Assembly: GCF_014646815.1 (NCBI RefSeq)
Contig: NZ_BMNZ01000003.1
Coordinates: 496,001-560,000, forward strand
Origin: Terrabacter tumescens
Lineage (GTDB): Bacteria > Actinomycetota > Actinomycetes > Actinomycetales > Dermatophilaceae
DNA: 64,000 nt
Reading direction: 5' to 3'
In this document: positions 6,565 to 26,044 of the stretch, in pieces
Layout of the letters: each line of letters starts with the position of its first letter
How positions within the stretch are numbered: position 1 is the first letter of the stretch
The notes under the pieces: generated by a model
Told to the model about the DNA's origin: nothing
Seen by the model: the letters and a program-made list of their open reading frames with translations, nothing else
The model's database searches: none
Program-made: the position numbers and the translations under genes

Positions 6565-8253
6565 ATGAGGATGAGCGACACCGGGGACGTCTGGTGGAAG
6601 AACGCGGTCGTCTACTGCGCCGACGTGCAGACGTTCTCGGACTCGAACGGCGACGGCATCGGCGACCTGCGCGGCATGACGGACCGCATCGAGTACCTCG
6701 CCGACCTCGGGGTGACCTGCCTCTGGCTCATGCCCTTCTACCCGACGGCCCGCAAGGACGACGGCTACGACATCACGGACTTCTTCGGGGTCGACCCCGA
6801 GCTCGGGACGCTGGGCGACTTCGTCGAGCTCGTGCGCACCGCCAGGGCTCACGGCATCCGGATCATCGTCGACTTCGTCATGAACCACACGTCCGACCAC
6901 CACCCCTGGTTCCGGTCCGCCCGCCGCAGCCGCGAGGACCCCTACCGTGACTACTACGTCTGGAGCCGCACCCGGCCGAGGTCGAGCAAGAAGGATGTCG
7001 TCTTCCCCGACGAGGAGGACAGCATCTGGGAGCGTGACGAGAAGACGGGTGACTACTACCTCCACCACTTCTACAAGCACCAGCCGGACCTCAACGTGGC
7101 CAATCCGGCTGTCCAGGAAGAGATCTCGCGCACGCTCGGCTTCTGGCTGGCCCTCGGGGTGTCGGGCTTCCGGGTGGACGCGGTGCCGTTCCTGTTCGCG
7201 CGCGACGGGGTGCCCGGCGTCGAGGACGCCGAGGCCGAGGCCTTCAACCCGGACCGCTACCTCGGCGACGTGCGATCGTTCGTGACGCGGCGCCTGGGGG
7301 ACGCGGTGCTCCTCGGCGAGGTCAACCTGCCCTACCCCGACCAGCGCCGCTTCTTCGGCGGCGACGACGGTGACGGCCTCAACATGCAGTTCGACTTCAT
7401 CGGCATGCAGCGCTTCTACCTCTCGCTCGCCCGCGGCGACGCCCGCCCGCTCGCGGAGGCGCTTCGGGAGCGGCCCGCGCTCGACGTCACCAGCCAGTGG
7501 GCGACCTTCGTGCGCAACCACGACGAGCTGACGCTCGACAAGCTGTCGACCACGGAGCGACGGGAGGTCTTCGCCGCGTTCGGACCCGACCCCGACATGC
7601 AGCTGTACGGACGCGGTCTGCGAAGGCGGCTGCCGCCGATGGTCAGCGGGGACGAGCGCCGCCTGCGCCTCGCCTACTCCCTGGTCTTCTCCCTGCCCGG
7701 CACCCCGGTCCTCTTCTACGGCGAGGAGATCGGCATGGGTGAGAACCTCGACGTGCCGGGCCGGCTGGCCGTGCGCACACCGATGCAGTGGACGCCCGCG
7801 CCGAGCGGAGGGTTCTCCTCGGCGCCGCCGCAACGGCTGACGCGACCGATGCCGGGCGGCGTCTGGGGGCCCGAGCACGTCAACGTCGCCGACCAGCGCA
7901 AGGACCCCGACTCGCTCTGGTGGTTCGTCCGCGCCCTCGCGCGACGCTACCGACAGCTGCCCCAGAGCGGCTGGGCGACCGTCGAGGTGCTCGACCACGC
8001 GGTCCCCTCGGTCCTGGCGCACGTCAGCCGGTGCGAGGACTGGGCCATGCTCGCGGTCCACAACCTCGGCGAGGACGGTGTCATCGTCCCCCTCACCGTT
8101 CCCGACGTGCCGGAGGGCGCCCGCCTCGTCGACGTGCTCGGCGAGGGCAGCGACATCACGCTCGATGGGTCGGGCGGCGTCGAGCTCGACCTCGGACCCT
8201 ACGGCTACCGCTGGCTGCTCGTCGCGCGTCCGGACGAGGACCCGGTCCTTTGA
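6565..8253 (+). CDS. GH13 alpha-amylase family protein, trehalose-synthase-like
   Basis: 562 residues with the full GH13 barrel signature and close similarity in pattern to TreS: SDSNGDGIGDLRG, DFVMNHTSDHHPWF, YYLHHFYKHQPDLN and RTPMQWTP. The catalytic residues are present: nucleophile Asp205 in GFRVDAVPF, acid/base Glu252 in LLGEVN, and Asp320 in RNHDEL. It probably isomerises or transglycosylates maltose-like sugars, perhaps maltose to trehalose, but a plain alpha-glucosidase or other GH13 activity is not excluded. No fused maltokinase is present. The start is the first of two nearby ATGs after GAGAGG. The gene stands alone, next to redox and stress genes, which fits a compatible-solute role. 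Confidence 0.85.
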   Translation: MRMSDTGDVWWKNAVVYCADVQTFSDSNGDGIGDLRGMTDRIEYLADLGVTCLWLMPFYPTARKDDGYDITDFFGVDPELGTLGDFVELVRTARAHGIRIIVDFVMNHTSDHHPWFRSARRSREDPYRDYYVWSRTRPRSSKKDVVFPDEEDSIWERDEKTGDYYLHHFYKHQPDLNVANPAVQEEISRTLGFWLALGVSGFRVDAVPFLFARDGVPGVEDAEAEAFNPDRYLGDVRSFVTRRLGDAVLLGEVNLPYPDQRRFFGGDDGDGLNMQFDFIGMQRFYLSLARGDARPLAEALRERPALDVTSQWATFVRNHDELTLDKLSTTERREVFAAFGPDPDMQLYGRGLRRRLPPMVSGDERRLRLAYSLVFSLPGTPVLFYGEEIGMGENLDVPGRLAVRTPMQWTPAPSGGFSSAPPQRLTRPMPGGVWGPEHVNVADQRKDPDSLWWFVRALARRYRQLPQSGWATVEVLDHAVPSVLAHVSRCEDWAMLAVHNLGEDGVIVPLTVPDVPEGARLVDVLGEGSDITLDGSGGVELDLGPYGYRWLLVARPDEDPVL

Positions 8254-10570: not shown

Positions 10571-10939
10571 ATGAGCGTCACGAGCTACCAGGATCTTCCT
10601 CTCGCCGACCGCGACCGGGAGTGGGACGGCGACGCCGCCGAGAAGCGGGTGCGCACATGGGCGGACGCGACCGAGGAGCCCAACGCGAAGTACCGCGACG
10701 CCCACGTCTGGTACGACGCCGAGCACAAGGACAACTTCACGGCCTACAAGCTCCTCGTCGCCGACGTCGTCGACGGGCGACTGCGCGCCGTCCCTCGCGG
10801 CGTCATGGCGGCAGCCGCCGTCATGCAGGGATCGCGCGGCGGCGTGGACCTGCCCGACAAGGACCGTGACCGGGTCCGCAGCCACCTGGCGAAGTACTAC
10901 GCCAAGATGGGGGAGCAGGCCCCCTGGGAGCGCGACTGA
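10571..10939 (+). CDS. Conserved small protein of unknown function
   Basis: 122 residues, acidic at the N-terminus and basic in the middle, with a strong ribosome site (AAGGAGGG). The C-terminal half, with AVPRGVMAAAAVMQGSRGG and then VRSHLAKYYAKMGE, resembles a short domain that I recall from actinobacterial and phage-associated proteins, including prohead-protease-type polypeptides. That link is from memory and weak. No enzyme motif, membrane segment or signal peptide is visible. It may be cotranscribed with the alcohol dehydrogenase upstream. Confidence 0.7.
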   Translation: MSVTSYQDLPLADRDREWDGDAAEKRVRTWADATEEPNAKYRDAHVWYDAEHKDNFTAYKLLVADVVDGRLRAVPRGVMAAAAVMQGSRGGVDLPDKDRDRVRSHLAKYYAKMGEQAPWERD

Positions 10940-12089: not shown

Positions 12090-12953
12090 ATGGCGCAGCA
12101 CACCTCTCACACCCGACCCTCCTTCGCCGAGCGCGACGCCGAGACGTCCGAGCTCTTCGCGAGACTGGCGGCCACCGACGACCCCGACGAGTCCGAGCAG
12201 GTCGTGGAGCAGATCGTGATCCTCTACCTCGACCTGTGCACGACGATGGCCGGACGCTACGACGGTCGCGGCGTCGAGCATGACGATCTGGTCCAGGTCG
12301 CACGGCTCGCCCTCGTCAAGGCCATCCGGCGCTACGAGCCCGGGCACGCCCCGTCGTTCGCCGCCTACGCGGTGCCCACCATCTCGGGCGAGCTCAAGCG
12401 CTGGTTCCGCGACCGCGGGTGGGTCGTGCGCCCGCCGCGGCGTCTGCAGGAGCTGCGCGCCGACCTCCAGGCCGTTCGCGCCGAGCTCGAGCAGGAGCTC
12501 GGCCGCACGCCCACCGACGCCGAGCTCGCAGCAGCCGTGGGAGCGACGGTCGAGGAGGTGCGCGAGGTGGCGTCCGCAGCGACCGGCTTCCGGCCCCTCT
12601 CGCTCGACTGCAGCCCCGCGGACGACGAACGCCCCGGCCTCTCGACGTTCCTCGCCGAGGTCGACGAGGAGCTGCAGGCGGCCGACGACCGCGTCTGCCT
12701 CACCGAGGCGCTCACCGAGCTCGACGACGACGAGCGGGAGCTGCTGCTCATGCGCTACGTCGAGGGGATGACCCAGCGCGAGATCGGCGAGGCCCGCGGC
12801 GTCAGCCAGATGCAGGTGTCGCGCACCCTGAGGCGCATCACCGTGCGGCTGCACGACCACCTCACCGAGAAGCCCGTCGAGAACCCTGTCGAGAACTCTG
12901 TCGAGAACTCTGTCGAGCCCCTCGAGGCTGAGGCGATGACCTCCGTCTCCTGA
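12090..12953 (+). CDS. RNA polymerase sigma factor, SigB/SigF/SigG group
   Basis: 287 residues. Region 2 reads DDLVQVARLALVKAIRRY then FAAYAVPTISGELKRWFRDR, the hallmark of stress/sporulation-type sigma factors. Region 3 follows with ELGRTPTDAELAAAVG. Region 4 is LLLMRYVEGMTQREIGEARG with a helix-turn-helix at VSQMQVSRTLRRI. It directs RNA polymerase to stress promoters. No anti-sigma or anti-anti-sigma gene is adjacent, which is unusual for the group. The C-terminus carries a short repeat VEN(P/S) absent from typical members. A paralogue with the same leader begins at 63750. Confidence 0.9.
   Translation: MAQHTSHTRPSFAERDAETSELFARLAATDDPDESEQVVEQIVILYLDLCTTMAGRYDGRGVEHDDLVQVARLALVKAIRRYEPGHAPSFAAYAVPTISGELKRWFRDRGWVVRPPRRLQELRADLQAVRAELEQELGRTPTDAELAAAVGATVEEVREVASAATGFRPLSLDCSPADDERPGLSTFLAEVDEELQAADDRVCLTEALTELDDDERELLLMRYVEGMTQREIGEARGVSQMQVSRTLRRITVRLHDHLTEKPVENPVENSVENSVEPLEAEAMTSVS
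12876..12917 (+). repeat. In-frame 12-base tandem repeat in the sigma-factor tail
   Basis: Units GTCGAGAACCCT, GTCGAGAACTCT, GTCGAGAACTCT and a partial fourth unit lie at 12876-12917, encoding repeated Val-Glu-Asn-(Pro/Ser). The 12-base period keeps the frame, so copy number can change without breaking the gene. Confidence 0.9.
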
Positions 12954-12979: not shown

Positions 12980-13768
12980 TCACCCGGGGGCGTCCCGGCT
13001 CGGCGCCGGCTCGTGCTCCACTGCCGTTGCCGGCGTCCGGCCACGCACGATCGCGGGCAGGGCGCCGGTGTCGGCCACCTGCTGGGCCACCTCGCGCAGC
13101 TTGCGGTTGGCGTTCTGGCTCGCCATCCGCAGCAGGCCGAACGCCTGGTCGCGCGTCACCTGGTGGCGCGCCATGAGGATGCCCATGGCGACGCCGATCT
13201 CGCGGTTGGTGACGAGGGCCTTCTGGAGGTTCTCGACGTGCTGCTGGTTGGCCGCCAGCGCCACGGCCAGCGCTCCGTGCGTGGCCAGCATGAGCCCGAC
13301 GAGCTCGGCGCGCTCGTCGAAGGCGGCCACCTCGTCGGCGTAGATGTTGAGGCCGTCGATGGTCTCCTCGGTCTCGTGGCCGAGGCGATAGCTCAGCATG
13401 CTGAGCAGGCCGAGCTCGCTCGAGACCTTCGCGCCGTACTCGGGCCACCGGCTGTCGTGGCGCAGGTCCCGCGGGCGGTAGAGCGCGTCCTCGACGATGG
13501 CATCGAGGCACGGACCCGAGCCCAACGCATACTGGATGTCGTCGGCGCGGCGGGCGCGGTCGTCGGTGGCCGCCACGGTGCGGAAGCGGCCGTGGGAGAA
13601 GGTCGTGATGCTCGCGCACGTGGCGCCGGGCACCCGCTCGACCGCCATCCGGGCCACCGCGTCGAGGGCGGCGGCCGGACCCATGGACTCGAGCTCGACA
13701 CCCAGCTGGGCGAAGGACTCGGCGACCTCGCGCAGCTCGTCGTCCACCTGGAGCTCGTTACCGCCCAT
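12980..13768 (-). CDS. GAF and ANTAR domain regulator
   Basis: 262 residues. A GAF domain covers about residues 15-170 and an ANTAR RNA-binding domain about 175-240 (TNREIGVAMGILMARHQV, then FGLLRMASQNANRKL). ANTAR proteins act as antiterminators by binding paired hexaloop hairpins in nascent RNA. The GAF domain may sense a ligand or redox state. No kinase domain or phospho-acceptor is present. The start has AGGAGGAAGG upstream. It is divergent from the antiporter and convergent with the sigma factor, in a block of stress regulators. Confidence 0.88.
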   Translation of the reverse strand: MGGNELQVDDELREVAESFAQLGVELESMGPAAALDAVARMAVERVPGATCASITTFSHGRFRTVAATDDRARRADDIQYALGSGPCLDAIVEDALYRPRDLRHDSRWPEYGAKVSSELGLLSMLSYRLGHETEETIDGLNIYADEVAAFDERAELVGLMLATHGALAVALAANQQHVENLQKALVTNREIGVAMGILMARHQVTRDQAFGLLRMASQNANRKLREVAQQVADTGALPAIVRGRTPATAVEHEPAPSRDAPG

Positions 13769-15317: not shown

Positions 15318-15508
15318 AGAGGGACGCACCCGGCATACCCCGTTTTCGTGACGTAACGCCCATGTCGGGCACGTTCGACGACCGCGGTGCGCGGCGTGCA
15401 CGACGCGGGTATGGAGACAGACGGAGGCTCCAGCCCAGCGGCCACCGACCCCGCGCCGACGCCCCCTCGATCGCTGGGCGTCGGGCGTGCGTACCGAGAG
15501 GCAACCGG

Positions 15509-16612
15509 TTGAGTCCCGTCATCGCGTCCGTCCCGTCAGGCCACGTCTACGTCCGGCACCTCGCACCGCCGGACGGCGAGACGACGGTCCTCCGCCTGCC
15601 CGACCCGCGACCGCGGGCCGACGTCCCCGACGCGCAGTGGTGGCCGCCGGGGATGCTCGAAGCCGGGTGGGTCGACGAGCACGCGGACGAGTTCGACGTC
15701 ATGCACGTGCACTTCGGCTTCGACGCCGTCTCGCCCGACGACCTCGCTGACGTCGTCGCCAGCCTGAGGCGTCACGGCAAGCCGCTCGTCGTCACGGTGC
15801 ACGACCTTCGCAACCCGCACCACCCGGAGCCGGGACTGCACGACGCCCAGCTCGGCGTCCTCGTCAGGGCCGCGGACGCCGTGCTGACCCTGACCGCCGG
15901 CGCGGCCGCGGAGATCGCAGCGCGATGGGGCCGCGAGGCGCTCGTCGTGCCCCACCCGCACGTCGTGGAGGAGCCGCGGCTCTCGCAGGAGCGGGTGCCG
16001 CACGCCGGGTTCGTCATCGGCGTCCACGCCAAGAGCCTGCGCGCGAGCATGGACCCTCTGCCGGTCATCGAGGAGATCGTCGCCACGCTGCCCGAGCTCC
16101 CGGGTGCGCGGCTGCGCGTCGACGCCCACACCGACGTCATGACGCCCGGGAACCCGCGCCATGCCGCCGACCTCGAGCCGTGCCTGCGCCGGCTCGCCGA
16201 CGACGGCCGGATCGAGCTGCACGTCCACGACTACTTCACCGACGACGAGCTGTGGGACTACCTCCAGTCCCTCGACGTCTCGGTCCTGCCCTACCGGTTC
16301 GGCACGCACAGTGGCTGGCTCGAGGCGTGCTACGACCTCGGCACCACGGTCCTGGCCCCCGACTGCGGCTACTACGCCGACCAGCGGCCCTGCATCCTCT
16401 ACGGCGTGCCGGGCTCGGCGCCCGCGCGGAGCGGGGCCGGCGCCCCGCCGTTGCGCGAGGGGCTCGTTCGCGCCTACCGCGACCGCCCGACGTGGCGGGC
16501 CGTCCCCGAGGAGCGCCGCCGCGAGCGTCTCGAGATCTCCCGCGTCCACGAGCAGGTGTATGCCGACGTGCTCGCAGCCGTGGCGAAGCGGGGTGTCCCG
16601 TGCACGTCGTAG
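15509..16612 (+). CDS. Glycosyltransferase, GT4-like (first of four)
   Basis: 367 residues from a TTG at 15509 with GAGAGG before it. An ATG at 15362 would add an Arg-rich stretch that looks untranslated. GT-B fold features are DVMHVHFGFD and KPLVVTVHDLRNP in the N-terminal domain, and a C-terminal sugar-nucleotide site with GTHSGWLEACYDLGTTVLAP. No membrane segment is seen, so it is cytoplasmic. Acceptor and donor are unknown. It shares its last 13 bases with the next gene, starting a run of four overlapping glycosyltransferase genes. Confidence 0.75.
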   Translation: MSPVIASVPSGHVYVRHLAPPDGETTVLRLPDPRPRADVPDAQWWPPGMLEAGWVDEHADEFDVMHVHFGFDAVSPDDLADVVASLRRHGKPLVVTVHDLRNPHHPEPGLHDAQLGVLVRAADAVLTLTAGAAAEIAARWGREALVVPHPHVVEEPRLSQERVPHAGFVIGVHAKSLRASMDPLPVIEEIVATLPELPGARLRVDAHTDVMTPGNPRHAADLEPCLRRLADDGRIELHVHDYFTDDELWDYLQSLDVSVLPYRFGTHSGWLEACYDLGTTVLAPDCGYYADQRPCILYGVPGSAPARSGAGAPPLREGLVRAYRDRPTWRAVPEERRRERLEISRVHEQVYADVLAAVAKRGVPCTS

Positions 16613-17682
16613 TGCTCGGCTCGTCGAGGCACCCGATCGCCGAACCGTTCGCCGGCGGCCTGGAGTCGCTGACCTGGCACCTCGTGCGCGGGCTGCGCGA
16701 CCGCGGGGTCGAGGTGACGTTCTTCGCGGGCCCGGGCAGCGACCCCGCGCTGGGGGCGACCGAGCTCGACATCGCGCCGCTGCGCCTCAGCGACGCCGCC
16801 CGTTCGGACGTGTCGATGGTCCCGGAGGCGTGGCTGCGTGAGCACCACGCCTACCTGCAGGTCATGGTGGCCCTCCAGCACCGTGACGACATCGACGTCG
16901 TTCACAACAACAGCCTCCACCACCTCCCGGTCGCCATGGCGAACTCCCTGCACGTGCCAGTGCTGACGACCCTGCACACGCCCCCGACGCCGTGGCTCGA
17001 GCCGGCCATCGCCATCGACGCCCGCTCCCGCGGTGGGCTGCGGCGGGGACACTTCGTCGCGGTCAGCCAGCACACCTCACGCTCCTGGTCGCACGTCGCG
17101 TCCGCGGACGTGGTGCACAACGGAGTGGACGTGCGGCGCTGGGTCGCCGGGCCCGGCGGCGAGGACCTCGTGTGGGTCGGCCGCATCGTCCCGGAGAAGG
17201 CCCCGCACCGGGCCATCGCCATGGCGCGAGCGTCCGGACGGCGGCTGCGTCTCGCCGGACCCGTCGGCGACGTCGACTACTTCGAGCGCTACGTGGCGGG
17301 CGAGCTCGACGACGACATCGCGTACGTCGGCCATCTCGACACCGAGGCGCTCGTCGACCTCGTCGGCCGCAGCGCGGCCCTGCTCGTGACACCGGACTGG
17401 GACGAGCCCTACGGCCTCGTCGCGGCAGAGTCCCTTGCGTGCGGCACACCGGTGGTCGCGCTGGACCGCGGTGGTCTCCGCGAGTTCGTCGTCCCCGGTG
17501 TCGGGGTGCTGCTCCGGCCCGACGCCGACGGAGCCGAGGCCGCGCAGGCCGTGGCGACCGCAGTCGGGCTGGACCGGGAGGCCTGCCGGGCCCATGCCGT
17601 CGCCGCCTGCTCGGTGGACCGCATGGTCGAGCAGTACCTCGCCCGCTACCAGTCGCTCGCTGCCCTGCCCGGTGCCGCGTGA
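16600..17682 (+). CDS. Glycosyltransferase family 4 protein (second of four)
   Basis: 360 residues from a GTG overlapping the previous gene. The N-terminal domain has AGGLESLTWHLVRGLRDRGV (the glycine loop) and TTLHTPPTPW. The C-terminal domain has VGRIVPEKAPHRAI and the E-x7-E motif DEPYGLVAAESLACGTPVVA that binds the nucleotide sugar. It is a retaining GT-B enzyme, probably using a UDP- or GDP-sugar. The four-base GTGA overlap with the next gene implies translational coupling. Confidence 0.88.
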   Translation: MHVVVLGSSRHPIAEPFAGGLESLTWHLVRGLRDRGVEVTFFAGPGSDPALGATELDIAPLRLSDAARSDVSMVPEAWLREHHAYLQVMVALQHRDDIDVVHNNSLHHLPVAMANSLHVPVLTTLHTPPTPWLEPAIAIDARSRGGLRRGHFVAVSQHTSRSWSHVASADVVHNGVDVRRWVAGPGGEDLVWVGRIVPEKAPHRAIAMARASGRRLRLAGPVGDVDYFERYVAGELDDDIAYVGHLDTEALVDLVGRSAALLVTPDWDEPYGLVAAESLACGTPVVALDRGGLREFVVPGVGVLLRPDADGAEAAQAVATAVGLDREACRAHAVAACSVDRMVEQYLARYQSLAALPGAA

Positions 17683-18740
17683 TCGGCTACTACGTCCACC
17701 ACCAGGGCCTGGGTCACCTCACGCGGCTCCAGGCCGTCGCGGAGCACCTGCGCTCCCCCGTCACCGGCCTCAGCTCCCTGCCTGCGCCCGCGTCCTGGGA
17801 CGGCCCGTGGATGCAGCTCGAGCGCGACGACGCACTGGCGCCGGAGCAGGCTGCGTCCGCGGACGCGACCGCTCATAGCGTGCTGCACTGGGTGCCGCGT
17901 CACGACGAGGGCCTCGCGGGGCGCGCGGCCGCGGTGTCCGCGTGGATCCGTCGGGCACGTCCATCCCTCGTCGTCGTCGACGTCTCGGTCGAGGTCGCGC
18001 TGCTGAGCCGCCTCTGTGGCGTGCCGGTCGTCGTGCTCGCCATGCCCGGGGTGCGCACCGACCGGACCCACTCGCTCGCCTACGACGTGGCCGACGCGCT
18101 GCTCGCCCCGTGGCCCGACGGCGCCCACACCGACGGCTGGCCCGAGGCGTGGCGCGCGAAGCTCTGGACCGTGGGTGGGCTGTCGCGCTTCGACGGCCGA
18201 CGACCGGCCGGAGCGGCTGAACGCCTGGCGCCTGCGGGGCGCACCGACGTCGACGCGCCCCGCCGCGTCCTGCTCCTCTGGGGCGGCGGCGGGCATGGCA
18301 CCTCGGCCGTCCAGGTGGCCGCCGCGCGGGCAGCCACCCCCGGCTGGGAGTGGGTCGAGCGCGGCCCTGGCTCACCCTCACCCGACCTGTGGTCCGAGCT
18401 CGCCACCGCCGATGTCGTCGTGACGCACGGCGGCCAGAACGCCGTGGCCGAGGTCGCCGCGGCCCGACGGCCGGCCGTCGTGGTCGCCCAGCCCCGCCCG
18501 TTCGACGAGCAGGTGGCCACCGCTCGGGCCGTCGACCGGCTCGGCGCAGCGGTGGGCGTCGACACCTGGCCCGCTGCCGCCGACCAGTGGCCCGGGCTGC
18601 TCGACCGGGCGCTTCACCGAGGCGGTGACGGCTGGCGGCGGTGGTCCACCGGACACGGCGCCGCGACCGCCGCCGCGCACCTCGACGCGCTGGCAGACCG
18701 CGACGTGCGTGCCCGGCCGGCCACCCGGACCGCGTCGTGA
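17679..18740 (+). CDS. MurG/MGT-type glycosyltransferase (third of four)
   Basis: 353 residues from the GTG inside the GTGA overlap. HHQGLGHLTRLQAVAEHL resembles the acceptor loop of MurG-like and macrolide-type transferases. LLLWGGGGHGTS and VVTHGGQNAVAEVAAARRPA form the UDP-sugar site; the second is the typical HGG motif. The protein lacks a membrane segment but such enzymes often sit at the membrane. A further GTGA overlap links it to the fourth gene. Confidence 0.82.
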   Translation: MIGYYVHHQGLGHLTRLQAVAEHLRSPVTGLSSLPAPASWDGPWMQLERDDALAPEQAASADATAHSVLHWVPRHDEGLAGRAAAVSAWIRRARPSLVVVDVSVEVALLSRLCGVPVVVLAMPGVRTDRTHSLAYDVADALLAPWPDGAHTDGWPEAWRAKLWTVGGLSRFDGRRPAGAAERLAPAGRTDVDAPRRVLLLWGGGGHGTSAVQVAAARAATPGWEWVERGPGSPSPDLWSELATADVVVTHGGQNAVAEVAAARRPAVVVAQPRPFDEQVATARAVDRLGAAVGVDTWPAAADQWPGLLDRALHRGGDGWRRWSTGHGAATAAAHLDALADRDVRARPATRTAS

Positions 18741-19684
18741 CCGACGGCGCGGGCGGCCTCGCCGTCGTCACCATCGTGCATGGGCGCCACGACCACCTCG
18801 AGCGCCAGCTCTGGGGACTGCGTCAGCAGCGGCTCCAGCCCGAGGTGCACGTCGTCGTCGCCATGGACGACCCCGACGTCGGTGACCTCGCCCGCGCGAA
18901 CGCATGCGGCTGGGACGTGCTCGTGCCCTCCCTGCCCCGTCAGGACGGCCACCTGCCCCTCGCCGCCGCCCGGAACCTCGGCGTCGACGCCGCCGCGGGG
19001 GCCGGCGCCGACCGGGTCGTGCTGCTCGACGTCGACTGCATCCCCTCACCGGGAGTGCTCGAGCGGTATGCCGGCGTGCTCGCGACCGTCGACCCCCCTC
19101 AGCCCGATGCCTCCGACGTCCTCGACGACTCCCGGGTCCGCGCCGTCGGGGAGTCGCCGGTCGTCCTTGCCGGCGAGGTGGCCTACCTGCCGCCCAGCCC
19201 CGAGGGCCGGGACTACCGCGACCTCGGTCTCAAGGCCCTTGCCGGCCTCGCCGCGCCCCACCCGGCCCGACCCGTCCTCAATGCTGACGAGGTCCGCGAG
19301 GCGGCCGACCTGCGCCTCTTCTGGTCGCTGTCCTTCGCCCTGACCGTGCGCTCCTGGCGGGTCCTCGGGGGCTTCGACGAGGGCTACGTCGGCTACGGCG
19401 GTGAGGACACCGACTTCGGGCAACGCGTAACTGCAGCCGGAGGCCGGCTCCTCTGGGTCGGCGGCGCGCTCGCCCACCACCAGCACCACCCGACCTCGTC
19501 GCCGCCGGTGCAGCACGTGCACGACATCGTCGCCAACGCCAACCGCTTCGCCGGGCGCTGGGGCTGGTGGCCGATGGAGGGGTGGCTGGAGGCGTTCGCC
19601 GACCGTGGGCTGGCCCGCCGCGCCGACGACGGTTCCTGGCACGCGACCTTCCCCGCGCACACCGCGGAGACCGCTGACGCCTGA
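18737..19684 (+). CDS. Glycosyltransferase family 2, galactosyltransferase-like (fourth of four)
   Basis: 315 residues from an overlapping GTG. The GT-A fold is clear: LAVVTIVHGRHDHLERQL at the start, the metal-binding DxD as LLDVDCIPSP, and the catalytic loop GGFDEGYVGYGGEDTDFG typical of the C-terminal domain of galactosyltransferase-type GT2 enzymes. HHQHHPTSSPP later in the chain is a histidine-rich loop. It is an inverting transferase needing a divalent metal. A shared terminator separates it from the opposite-strand stress protein gene. Confidence 0.87.
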   Translation: MTDGAGGLAVVTIVHGRHDHLERQLWGLRQQRLQPEVHVVVAMDDPDVGDLARANACGWDVLVPSLPRQDGHLPLAAARNLGVDAAAGAGADRVVLLDVDCIPSPGVLERYAGVLATVDPPQPDASDVLDDSRVRAVGESPVVLAGEVAYLPPSPEGRDYRDLGLKALAGLAAPHPARPVLNADEVREAADLRLFWSLSFALTVRSWRVLGGFDEGYVGYGGEDTDFGQRVTAAGGRLLWVGGALAHHQHHPTSSPPVQHVHDIVANANRFAGRWGWWPMEGWLEAFADRGLARRADDGSWHATFPAHTAETADA

Positions 19685-19706
19685 GCGCCTGCGCCGGCGT
19701 CAGCGG
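19671..19706. terminator. Bidirectional hairpin between glycosyltransferase operon and stress protein gene
   Basis: CCGCTGACGCC (19671-19681) and GGCGTCAGCGG (19696-19706) are perfectly complementary over 11 bases with a 14-base loop. The two stops of the converging genes (19684 and 19700) fall within or beside it. Confidence 0.7.
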
Positions 19707-20173
19707 GCGAGGACCACCGTGCTGAGCGCGTGCTCGAGCACCGCGCGGCTCGTCGAGCCGAGATTCATGCCCGCGAATCCTCCACTGCCGGTGGCTCCGA
19801 GCACGACCTCCTCAGCGGCGGCGGACAGGTGGATCAGCTCCTCGGCCGCGTGACCGGAGACGACCTGCTGCTCGATGAGGACGTCCGGGAAGTCGTCCGC
19901 CACCTCGTCCACGACCTCCCCGAGGTAGGCCTCGGTGGCCTCCTGGGGGTCGGCCGTGAACCACCACGGCGACGTGCCGACTCGCTCGGGCGGAGCCAAT
20001 GGGTAGAGGTGCCACACCGCGACCACGACGACCATGTCCCCCTTGGCGCGCGCGTCGGCGCAGGCCCAGCGGAGCGCGATGCGACTCTGCTTAGAACCGT
20101 CCACCCCCACCACGATCCGGCCCATGCGTCGGTCGGCCGTCGGTCCACCCTCGGGGCGTGTCATCTCGTCCAT
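19700..20173 (-). CDS. Universal stress protein
   Basis: 157 residues, one UspA domain. RIVVGVDGSKQSRIAL opens the fold, and GATGSGGFAGMNLGSTSRAV is the ATP-binding loop of the G-2x-G-9x-G-S/T type, so it should bind ATP. In mycobacteria many such genes belong to the DosR dormancy regulon. Here a DosR-type box lies 71 bases upstream of the start, and a DevS/DevR pair is 1.6 kb away, which supports hypoxia or redox control as an inference. Confidence 0.9.
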   Translation of the reverse strand: MDEMTRPEGGPTADRRMGRIVVGVDGSKQSRIALRWACADARAKGDMVVVVAVWHLYPLAPPERVGTSPWWFTADPQEATEAYLGEVVDEVADDFPDVLIEQQVVSGHAAEELIHLSAAAEEVVLGATGSGGFAGMNLGSTSRAVLEHALSTVVLAR

Positions 20174-20354: not shown

Positions 20355-21101
20355 ATGTGCACCGTCCTCATCACGTACTCCACCCCACCGCCGCCCAGCG
20401 AGACCACGACACCGGTCCAGGTCGGCCTGGTGCGGGAGGCCACCGCCCCGGTCCCGGCCACGGCGCGCGAGGAGTCGAACGTCGGCGAACCGTCCACCTC
20501 GTCCACCTCGTCCACGGAGCCGGCGGCGACCTGCGACGTGGTGACCGAGGTGACGCCGCCCGCACCGTCCTTCGCGGCCGCGACGGCCGGCATCGACGAG
20601 GCCATCGCCGCCACCATCGCCGACGAGCTGACCCGGGCCGGGCACCGGGTCGCGTGCCGGCCGAGCGTCGCCGTCACGACGACCGACGGCTTCGACCTCG
20701 TCCTCGCCGTCCACCGTCTCCGGGTCAGCCACCGCGACGGAGGCGCACCGCAGGCCATCGACGCGGACGACCCCCAGTCGGTCGAGGTGGCTCAGGGCAC
20801 CCGGACCCCGAACGACGGGGAGTCGACGATCCCCATGACGTGGTGCGCCGACTGGCGTGCCGTGGACGCGTGGGCCCGCAGCGTCGGGGACCACCTCGTC
20901 CACCTCCTCGAGCTGCGCACCGAGCTGGCTCGCGTGCGCGCCGAGCTGGACCGCTGCCGCACCATGCTGCTCGCGGCAACACCGGAGCCGCGTGCGCTCT
21001 CCGCCGTCGAGCTCGGCCGTCCGGTCGCGCGGGGCGCGGCGGCCCACGGCGGGCGGCGGGCGCACCGGCTGACTCCGACCAGCCAGACCACAGGAGCCTG
21101 A
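20355..21101 (+). CDS. Flavodoxin-like protein lacking a clear FMN loop
   Basis: 248 residues, ATG with AGGAGA upstream. It starts MCTVLITYS as a flavodoxin would. The next strand-loop is replaced by about 70 residues rich in Pro, Thr and Ser, including a (Ser-Thr-Ser) repeat. The fold then appears to resume with IDEAIAATIADELTRAGHRV and GFDLVLAVHRLRV, where flavodoxins of the HemG type have their second strand and helix. The FMN phosphate loop (T/S-x-T-G-x-T) is absent. Residues about 170-215 form a likely coiled coil (HLLELRTELARVRAELDRC). Function unknown; it may be a regulatory or structural relic of a flavoprotein. It sits beside a DosR-type box and two bases ahead of a PNPOx-like gene. 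Confidence 0.7.
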   Translation: MCTVLITYSTPPPPSETTTPVQVGLVREATAPVPATAREESNVGEPSTSSTSSTEPAATCDVVTEVTPPAPSFAAATAGIDEAIAATIADELTRAGHRVACRPSVAVTTTDGFDLVLAVHRLRVSHRDGGAPQAIDADDPQSVEVAQGTRTPNDGESTIPMTWCADWRAVDAWARSVGDHLVHLLELRTELARVRAELDRCRTMLLAATPEPRALSAVELGRPVARGAAAHGGRRAHRLTPTSQTTGA

Positions 21102-24532: not shown

Positions 24533-26044
24533 ATGGCAGCGGACGGGCCGCGCTGGCGCCGGGCGCTCGCCCTAACGGTCCTCGGGACGCTCGTCCCCGG
24601 TGCCGGGCTGACGCGGGCCCGCAACCGCTGGCTGGGCCGGCTCGGGTGGGTCATGGTCGCCGTCACGCTCGTCGTCCTGGGCACAGTCGCGTATGCCGTG
24701 TGGTCCCGCGGCTTCTCGAGCGCGGTCCTCGACGTGGTGTCGAGACCGGAGGCGCTGCGGCCCGCGGCGTTCGTCATCGCCGCCTGGGGCTTCCTCTGGT
24801 GCGCGTCGATCCTGCTGACCGCCGTGCAGGTCCGGCCCCGTCCCGGCGGGCGCCTCGGCGCCGTGCTGCTCGGCGCCTTCGCCGCGGTCATGGCCGGCGC
24901 GGTCGGGGCGGGGACCGTCGTCGCCGTCGACTACGCCCTCATCACTCGTGACACGGTCAGCGCCGTCTTCTCCGCCCCGCCACAGCAGCCCGGCGTCGGC
25001 GCGCGAGTGACCGAGGGTGCGGACCCGTGGGCCGCGCAGGCACGGGTCAACCTGCTGCTCCTCGGGTCCGACGCGGGCTCGGACCGCACCGGCATCCGGA
25101 CCGACTCGATGATCGTCGCCAGCATCGACACGAGGTCGGGACGCACGACGCTCGTCTCGATGCCGCGCAACCTGCTCTACGCGCCGCTCGCCCCCGGCAG
25201 CCCGCTCCGCGCGCGCTACCCGTCCGGCCGATTCGGCGCGCCGGACCGCACGTGCGCGCAGAACGCCCCCGGCGAGACCGGGCAGTGCCAGCTGACCAAC
25301 CTCTACGGCGAGGCGGAGGCGTATGCGCTCGACCACCCGGGCGCCTACGCCAAGGGCGTCGTGCCCGGTCGCGAGGAGGTCCGAGGCAGCGTGCAGCAGA
25401 TCGTCGGGCTGCCCATCGACCACGTCGTCGTCATCGACCTCAGGGGCTTCTCGCTGCTCGTCGACGCGATGGGCGGGATCGACGTCAACGTCAAGGACGC
25501 CGGGACCGGTGGACCCCTGCCGGTCGGTGGCCACGTCACGGCGGACAACCGTGTCGTCGGCGTCAAGGAGTGGTTCCGCGCGGGACGGCAGCACCTCGAC
25601 GGCTGGCACGCGCTCTGGTACGCCCGGTCGCGCGCGGCCGACAGCGACACCTACCGGCAGGCCCGGCAGCGCTGCGTCGTGCAGGCCATCGTCGAGCAGG
25701 TCGACCCGGCGGCGATGGTCCGGCAGTACCCCCGGCTGGCCCGGATCGCGCGCGACAACATCTACACCGACATCCCGGCCGCGAGCCTGCCGGCCTTCGT
25801 CGAGCTCGTCGAGCGCGCGCAGCGGGCCCGGCTCAACAGCGTCTCGCTGACGCTCGACGACGGCATCAAGCCGTGGGCACCCGACTACGCGAGGATCCGG
25901 GCCCTCGTGCGCCGCGGCATCGCGGCGCCGGCCCCGGCGAAGGCGGCGACGCCCTCGACGACACCGTCCCCGGGGCCGGCCGCTCCCCCGCGCCGGCCGC
26001 CAGCCACCCCGAGCCCGACGACGACGCCGTATGCGCAGTGCTGA
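24533..26044 (+). CDS. LytR-CpsA-Psr (LCP) family cell-wall glycopolymer ligase
   Basis: 503 residues. Three or four membrane segments occupy about residues 10-145, more than the single segment of typical LCP proteins. The LCP domain then starts with NLLLLGSDAGSDRTGIRTDS and includes SMPRNLLY, with the conserved Asp and Arg residues that bind the polyprenyl pyrophosphate, and WYARSRAADSDTYRQARQR. The end is a Pro/Thr/Ala-rich tail. LCP enzymes attach arabinogalactan, teichoic acid or capsule to peptidoglycan from outside the membrane. It may complete the work of glycosyltransferases such as those at 15.5-19.7 kb, but this is speculation. Confidence 0.88.
   Translation: MAADGPRWRRALALTVLGTLVPGAGLTRARNRWLGRLGWVMVAVTLVVLGTVAYAVWSRGFSSAVLDVVSRPEALRPAAFVIAAWGFLWCASILLTAVQVRPRPGGRLGAVLLGAFAAVMAGAVGAGTVVAVDYALITRDTVSAVFSAPPQQPGVGARVTEGADPWAAQARVNLLLLGSDAGSDRTGIRTDSMIVASIDTRSGRTTLVSMPRNLLYAPLAPGSPLRARYPSGRFGAPDRTCAQNAPGETGQCQLTNLYGEAEAYALDHPGAYAKGVVPGREEVRGSVQQIVGLPIDHVVVIDLRGFSLLVDAMGGIDVNVKDAGTGGPLPVGGHVTADNRVVGVKEWFRAGRQHLDGWHALWYARSRAADSDTYRQARQRCVVQAIVEQVDPAAMVRQYPRLARIARDNIYTDIPAASLPAFVELVERAQRARLNSVSLTLDDGIKPWAPDYARIRALVRRGIAAPAPAKAATPSTTPSPGPAAPPRRPPATPSPTTTPYAQC

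Follow-up and report, generated by a model that had tools for sequence, protein, structure and literature searches.

A conserved four-gene glycosyltransferase operon of Terrabacter tumescens and a possible role in the formation of a soluble stress oligosaccharide

What is made by four different glycosyltransferases that are encoded one after another, with no gene for sugar-nucleotide synthesis, a flippase or a polymerase attached to them? The question is raised by a locus of Terrabacter tumescens (contig NZ_BMNZ01000003.1 of assembly GCF_014646815.1), where four overlapping genes, here named P1 to P4, occupy positions 15509–19684 of a stretch of 64,000 nucleotides, the window of this analysis. 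The original prediction, made from the DNA letters alone, had seen in them a set not recognised as a known actinobacterial pathway and had suggested a four-step glycolipid or cap oligosaccharide as the product. We find that the operon is real and conserved and, as far as our searches reach, undescribed as a pathway: the family libraries fit this view, none of the literature searches made returned a description of the operon or its partners as a pathway, and the passages of PMC6669644 examined concern other clusters. Both gene order and co-occurrence are conserved, so the grouping is more than chance and the idea of a co-functioning set is supported. For the product we arrive at a different proposal, namely a soluble cytoplasmic stress hetero-oligosaccharide or an oligoglycosylated small molecule of the compatible-solute type, a reading that we favour tentatively and at a little less than even chances.

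Layout and conservation of the operon

All four genes are located on the forward strand, and the frames and starts, overlapping by 13, 4 and 4 bases, are as first described. P1 (15509–16612, TTG start, 367 amino acids) encodes a GT4-like glycosyltransferase proposed for a primer step or the first transfer. The three core genes follow: P2 (16600–17682, GTG start, 360 amino acids) for a GT4 glycosyltransferase of the glucosylsucrose synthase/tetrahydrobiopterin glucosyltransferase group, P3 (17679–18740, GTG start, 353 amino acids) for a GT-B enzyme (GT1/GT28, MGT-like) and P4 (18737–19684, GTG start, 315 amino acids) for a glycosyltransferase with a galactosyltransferase C domain (GT7/GT27/chondroitin-synthase-like). 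Support for the TTG start of P1 comes from an alignment with two Terrabacter genomes and one Terracoccus genome, in which the codon, the ribosome-binding site GAGAGG (15496–15501, forward strand) and a block upstream of them, GGGTATGG, are conserved. A longer frame from an ATG at 15362 is unlikely, because a conserved SigB/SigF-like −10 box, GGGTAT (15407–15412, forward strand, identical in four aligned sequences), would then lie inside the extension while the TTG codon and its GAGAGG site are conserved. The leader between this box and P1 (15413–15508) is also well conserved in Terrabacter and Terracoccus; a structured leader RNA was rejected (z-scores of −1.23 and −0.45), and neither RNA families at gathering score nor tRNAs were found in the window. 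An anti-phage defence system was rejected as well, with no PADLOC family for the four proteins at E ≤ 0.01.

To see how firmly the genes belong together we can look at 119 genomes of the same order, where P2, P3 and P4 share an identical set of 26 genomes; P1 is present in 24 of them and, without P2–P4, in four further ones. These counts depend on cut-offs chosen after the lists had been seen (E of about 1e-33 for P1, 3e-39 for P2, 1e-15 for P3 and 2e-30 for P4), compared to raw tallies of 29, 33 and 39 genomes for P1, P3 and P4 at E 0.001 and 30 for P2 at E 1e-30. The margin for P2 is thin: genome G029 (2.8e-39), whose match has an adjoining P3, was kept and genome G049 (6.0e-39), whose match lies on a contig without the other three, was dropped. 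Among 296 genomes of the phylum a strong P1 was found in 10 and a strong P3 in 11, with 10 shared; a P1 match of 45 bits (G324) and 32 genomes with P3 matches of at most 156 bits were not counted as strong. It seems that the four genes are acquired or lost together, because in the order sample five or more genera include both a genome with the set and one without all four genes at the cut-offs used (for example G004/G023 and G052/G019). Neither these tests nor the distance correlations given below are controlled for phylogeny, and the counts ignore kinship.

Gene order was compared in 109 core-bearing loci, made up of 80 found by searching named bacterial genomes with the P1 alignment, 28 from the order sample and the window itself. 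Since the search confirmed 329 P1 relatives and the best 80 of them were taken, the scan loci favour P1-bearing, window-like arrangements. They come from Streptomyces, Nocardioides, Mycobacterium, Rhodococcus, Nocardia, Gordonia, Amycolatopsis, Pseudonocardia, Agreia and other genera, and also from Solirubrobacter and an acidimicrobial metagenome-assembled genome. The order P1-P2-P3-P4 on one strand is present in 68 of the 109 loci, 67 of them without an intervening gene, and a start-stop gap of −4 occurs at the three successive junctions in 41, 62 and 42 of these 68; the other 41 loci show a partial or rearranged set. The canonical order is found in 58 of the 80 scan loci versus 9 of the 28 order loci. 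Genes were called in a simple way and some loci stop at contig ends, so that a gap in a single locus is no proof of absence, and two loci (L089 and L245) were left out. Synteny, proposed earlier as a check, is thus kept in other actinobacterial orders, the three-gene core reaches the proteobacteria, and a loss of synteny was not seen.

In the 78 loci with all four genes the pairwise distances correlate with r values of 0.80–0.82 among P2, P3 and P4 and of 0.43–0.65 with P1. P1 is therefore the looser member of the set and P2-P3-P4 its core. The weaker correlation of P1, its inverted or separate position in several loci, its presence in four genomes without the rest and the occurrence of P2 alone with a sucrose-phosphate synthase in Paracoccus yeei would also fit four unrelated glycosyltransferases that form no common pathway and travel together in stress islands behind a common promoter. 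We regard this as very improbable, as P2–P4 stay together across actinobacteria, alphaproteobacteria and one gammaproteobacterium despite varied order and strand, and their genome distribution in the order sample is identical at the cut-offs used.

The four enzymes and their nearest relatives

The original assignment to two GT4-like, one MurG/MGT-like and one galactosyltransferase-like enzyme agrees with the Pfam matches and with fold models of P1 and P3, the GT4 match of P1 being weak; none of the four approaches the cut-off of any NCBIfam model. Judged from the alignments, all of them keep the residues expected of active enzymes, save the first glutamic acid of the EX7E motif in P1. The roles of the conserved residues are here taken to be those usual in each family.

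P1 is the atypical one. Its Pfam match remains below the cut-off (PF13439, 25.3 versus 28.5 bits), while its fold model (mean pLDDT 91) is a GT-B of the GT4 type with glycogen synthase, BshA, methylmannose-polysaccharide mannosyltransferase, GlgM and sucrose-phosphate synthase as structural neighbours, a generic outcome. No sequence relative was found in the PDB, where the sole profile match at E ≤ 0.1 is a fragment of DNA polymerase III tau. R178 and E272 are invariant in an alignment of 20 rows; the first glutamic acid of EX7E is absent in 20/20 rows and the motif H267-S-G-W-x-E272 is invariant instead.

P2 is a clear GT4 enzyme by Pfam and keeps R195, K200 and E269-x7-E277 in a 25-row alignment. 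Its closest solved relatives are glucosylsucrose synthase and then the tetrahydrobiopterin glucosyltransferases, both with soluble acceptors. It belongs to the same GT4 subgroup as the glucosylsucrose synthase TeGSS from Thermosynechococcus (Tll1591, PDB 7fg9 and 7fga; profile E 2.9e-64) and has the UDP-phosphate-binding arginine, lysine and glutamic acid residues named in passages of PMC9909042. According to the same source, Tll1591 adjoins the sucrose-phosphate synthase Tll1590, and salt and heat stress increase the product of glucosylsucrose synthase in cyanobacteria. In proteobacteria P2 relatives likewise adjoin a sucrose-phosphate synthase with its phosphatase (SPS-SPP). The second-nearest solved relative, UDP-glucose:tetrahydrobiopterin glucosyltransferase (PDB 5zer and 5ze7), also uses a small soluble acceptor, which going by the enzyme name differs in being a pterin. 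No P3 or P4 partners are known for that enzyme.

For P3 only the GT28 C-terminal domain (PF04101) reached its Pfam cut-off. The fold model (mean pLDDT 88) is a GT-B closest to GT1 structures of the OleD/YjiC type, and the loop G10-x-G12-H13 is conserved (the P3 and P4 alignments have 20 to 25 rows). P3 thus resembles the macrolide-type GT1 enzymes (OleD, YjiC, the kitacinnamycin glycosyltransferase) and MurG in its fold and in the N-terminal GxGH loop, but its identity over the best structural matches is only about 18%. P4 matches Glyco_transf_7C and the domains of chondroitin synthase, beta-1,4-galactosyltransferase and polypeptide GalNAc-transferase, and it keeps the DxD and ED pairs of this group (D98/D100 and E223-D224) together with H248. 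In contrast to the chondroitin synthase group it is a single-domain protein with a conserved C-terminal WGxWPMxGWL block of its own. Its assignment as mycofactocin glycosyltransferase MftF (TIGR03965) was rejected, as 40.7 bits against a cut-off of 280 point to remote similarity.

The same likenesses bear on another explanation, the glycosylation of a specialised small molecule such as a pigment, an antibiotic or a cofactor-like compound whose synthesis is encoded at another site of the genome. It would suit the fold of P3, closest to macrolide- and enediyne-type glycosyltransferases, the tetrahydrobiopterin acceptor of the second solved P2 relative, the remote similarity of P4 to MftF and a distribution that is patchy and partly plasmid-borne. 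The GT1 fold, however, is common to many enzymes, no biosynthetic core enzyme was found among the ten recurrent neighbour clusters examined, and the partnership with sucrose-phosphate synthase points toward sugar metabolism. We rate this explanation as quite unlikely.

Plasmid-borne relatives and the sucrose-phosphate synthase

P1 was found in seven plasmid records, all of them from Rhodococcus, all with P3 (7/7) and none with SPS-SPP (0/7). In the two Rhodococcus plasmids examined the four genes follow the canonical order and lie near a SigB/F/G sigma factor gene or near GAF and ANTAR genes. Relatives of P2, P3 and P4 are found on proteobacterial plasmids as well, in differing orders. The order SPS-SPP, P3, P4, P2 is present on plasmids of Sulfitobacter pontiacus, Pontibrevibacter and Sphingomonas R1, and Sulfitobacter alexandrii resembles S. 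pontiacus with P2 located two genes further on. According to NCBIfam the first gene in S. pontiacus encodes a sucrose-phosphate synthase with a phosphatase domain, both scores being below their cut-offs (TIGR02472 with 302 bits and TIGR02471 with 149 bits). Paracoccus marcusii KGP has the same order with P3 and P2 looking broken; here the relatives of both are spread over several short frames beside SPS-SPP and P4 (L201, 7511–9902), by decay or sequencing error.

A relative of the Sulfitobacter P3 is present in 36 plasmid records, of which 23 carry SPS-SPP; the latter adjoins P3 in 20 of them and is separated from it by P4 in three. Seen from the other side, 29 plasmid records have SPS-SPP: these 23, four from Paracoccus yeei and two from Acidithiobacillus with neither a P3 nor a P2 relative in the lists. 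In the four P. yeei records SPS-SPP stands directly before a P2 relative without P3 and P4, an adjacency taken from record coordinates and examined as gene context in one record. Since this pairing of sucrose-phosphate synthase and P2 is extended by P3 and P4 elsewhere, a sucrose-based oligosaccharide is the simplest reading for the proteobacteria, and their version of the operon probably leads to such a product. Compared to the pathway of sucrose-phosphate synthase and TeGSS, P3 and P4 are usually added, and the actinobacterial operon differs in having P1 and no sucrose-phosphate synthase.

Six of the 36 records have P3 without SPS-SPP and without P1. The contexts covered among them are those of Novosphingobium resinovorum HR1a, Sphingobium RAC03 and Psychrobacter, with three further Novosphingobium records left out. 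Three Sphingobium/Novosphingobium contexts show the order P2, GT2, P3, acyl-CoA-dehydrogenase-like gene, PIG-L, NodS-like gene, P4, and two of them, from Novosphingobium and Sphingobium RAC03, are flanked by a catalase gene. The Psychrobacter plasmid carries P2-P3-P4 alone, and in Jiella relatives of SPS-SPP, P4, P3 and P2 lie in one region together with PIG-L and acyl-CoA-dehydrogenase-like genes. In Sphingobium xenophagum the P3 relative is split into two annotated frames (L197, 4604–5652) and probably decayed.

Stress genes, the proposed product and accessory genes

The window carries a candidate regulator of the operon, a sigma factor of the SigB/SigF/SigG type (12090–12953, forward strand), with sigma-70 regions above their Pfam cut-offs and 219 bits for the best NCBIfam model, SigBFG, just below the cut-off of 234. 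A gene for an ANTAR-domain regulator, a recurrent neighbour, lies beside it (12980–13768, reverse strand), and a universal stress protein gene (19700–20173, reverse strand; both by Pfam) converges with the operon and is regarded as a neighbour only. Further neighbours in the window are two short-chain dehydrogenases/reductases, a zinc alcohol dehydrogenase, a Na+/H+ exchanger and a GAF histidine kinase with its regulator. In the 109 other loci we counted 25 homologous genes for the sigma factor and 23 for the ANTAR regulator, besides eight for the exchanger, six for the universal stress protein and four for the histidine kinase.

As the marker clusters of neighbouring genes had been defined on the scan and order loci themselves, they were tested on the order loci and against ANTAR counts over whole genomes. 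ANTAR genes are present in 6 of 15 loci of 21 kb each, versus 0.48 genes expected from the counts over the 15 genomes; the sample comprises 15 of 16 chosen loci (L140 was left out), and as loci were counted by sequence cluster and genomes by PF03861, at least one gene, near L123, was missed. A search with the pattern GNNT-N14-17-GGGTA[TC], the SigB/SigF promoter consensus, gave matches upstream of 19/87 P1 genes versus 60/1032 control genes (p = 2.5e-6). As controls we used the remaining called genes of these loci, stress genes included, wherever an upstream gap of 60 bases or more was present. When ten stress markers were compared singly between order loci and random loci, only zinc alcohol dehydrogenase fell below 0.05, uncorrected; the control regions contain four overlapping pairs. 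Loci of the Terrabacter, Nocardioides, Mycobacterium and Rhodococcus type thus show a good link to stress, and those of the order sample a weak one.

On this basis the operon would be transcribed, in at least part of the lineages, from a general-stress promoter of the SigB/SigF type, and its enzymes would assemble a soluble hetero-oligosaccharide or oligoglycosylated small molecule stepwise in the cytoplasm as a stress protectant. The core enzymes P2 (a retaining GT4), P3 (an inverting GT-B) and P4 (an inverting GT-A) would add sugars one after another. The donors are probably UDP-sugars that primary metabolism provides, and the lack of attached sugar-nucleotide genes would then be understandable. 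In the proteobacteria the primer is probably sucrose, supplied by the neighbouring SPS-SPP; in the actinobacteria the operon begins with P1 instead, which would make the primer or transfer the first sugar, its role as primer maker being a hypothesis; another acceptor might also serve as primer there. Some genomes may modify the product further through accessory enzymes of the acetyl-, methyl- and deacetylase type. The genes, their order and co-occurrence, the neighbours, the motif enrichment and the adjacency of SPS are direct observations, and from them we infer the substrates, stereochemistry and reaction order as well as the solubility and protective role of the product. A more specific form of the proposal, which we consider somewhat unlikely, is a mobile multi-sugar compatible solute: the trans-phylum core P2-P3-P4 would turn a non-reducing disaccharide primer, made by SPS-SPP in proteobacteria or by P1 as a GT4-like synthase in actinobacteria, into an oligosaccharide that is branched or of mixed linkage and could carry acetyl, methyl or N-deacetyl/N-methyl modifications.

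A number of observations weigh against the proposed soluble stress product. The catalytic Tyr18 of TeGSS, which contacts sucrose, corresponds to Ala18 in P2 (with an inferred offset in chain numbering), and this column is variable in the 25-row alignment; a function identical to TeGSS is therefore not to be assumed. A search of the window genome for the sucrose-phosphate phosphatase family S6PP gave no convincing hit, the best being partial with 43 bits, which weakens the case for sucrose as acceptor in actinobacteria. Sucrose as acceptor in the window genome by way of PF05116 was likewise rejected: this domain is matched in 112/119 genomes, mostly as a generic HAD match, and the one strong match among those listed, with 141 bits, comes from G069, which is not one of the 26 genomes with the core. 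Upstream of P1 the −10 box fits the consensus and the −35 element in the window, GTGC-N16, is one base off the GNNT pattern; the sequences of Terrabacter Root85 and Ter38 read GTGT-N16 at this place. Stress markers learned on the scan loci are present in 7/28 order loci versus 2/40 random loci (p = 0.021), a mild difference. The pairing without P3 and P4 in P. yeei belongs here as well, as does a Rhodococcus koreensis plasmid on which a P2 relative, broken into pieces, lies next to GAF/ANTAR genes without P3 and P4. Two more observations of this kind, the polysaccharide enzyme WcbI and a LytR-CpsA-Psr (LCP) gene, lead to the product suggested originally.

WcbI (PF18588), by its name a family of polysaccharide enzymes, is found in 17/119 order genomes, all 17 within the 26 with the core and several with the gene at a distant locus, and an LCP gene (24533–26044, by Pfam) is located 5 kb downstream of the operon. 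Together with four glycosyltransferases lacking a polymerase, an FkbM methyltransferase near some clusters and a polysaccharide pyruvyl transferase in one Sphingomonas operon, they would be compatible with a membrane glycolipid or surface cap oligosaccharide exported by transporters encoded elsewhere. However, the genome of the window differs from the WcbI-bearing ones in having no WcbI match, and the LCP gene is found near the operon only in Terrabacter and Terracoccus among the loci. The Pfam scan of the 25 called genes between 313 and 29461, two of which (10571–10939 and 20355–21101) had no match at all, bears out the earlier statement that sugar-nucleotide synthesis, flippase and polymerase families are absent; it also gave no exporter and no initiating polyprenyl-phosphate sugar transferase, the rest of the genome not having been searched for transporters. 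The nearest solved P2 relatives use soluble acceptors, many proteobacterial versions are partnered with SPS-SPP, and membrane-like hydrophobic segments are absent from P1, P2 and P4, with one hydrophobic stretch in P3. As nothing specific speaks for it, the glycolipid or cap product was not upheld and appears unlikely to us.

If the soluble stress product proposed here is correct, many soil actinobacteria and some proteobacteria would make an undescribed stress sugar, partly spread by plasmids, and general-stress sigma factors would be linked to oligosaccharide protectants in a way that can be tested. Functions would also be suggested for four glycosyltransferase families named so far only by fold, and the enzymes might be of use for making defined hetero-oligosaccharides.

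Other genes near the core are less constant. In 29 loci of the order sample a second GT2 was found in 16, a second GT4 in 14 and a WcbI-family enzyme in 11. Direct neighbours of the core in a few loci are genes for a small GT2, an acyl-CoA-dehydrogenase-like enzyme and a PIG-L/NodS-like deacetylase-methyltransferase. The PIG-L/NodS-like gene was rejected as an obligate partner, since at E ≤ 1e-20 it is present in 16/26 genomes with the core but also in 18/93 others, some matches covering one domain only. In the window genome it is encoded on another contig with matches to its two partners, in a region (L199, contig C1, about 353–360 kb) that holds genes for a short-chain dehydrogenase/reductase, an FAD oxidoreductase, an SRPBCC protein, a small GT2 and the PIG-L/NodS-like and acyl-CoA-dehydrogenase-like proteins. 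A TreS-like GH13 enzyme upstream of the operon (6565–8253; TIGR02456 with 523 bits versus a cut-off of 678) was rejected as a pathway member, as it is found near the operon only in Terrabacter and Terracoccus. Large catalases recur near the operon, with 11 genes across 10 genera or loci (for example L104, 3134–5308, and L189, 14153–16297). Finally, the segment 54001–58000 of the window has a GC content of about 0.65 versus about 0.73 around it and few well-scoring genes, and might be a recent insertion.

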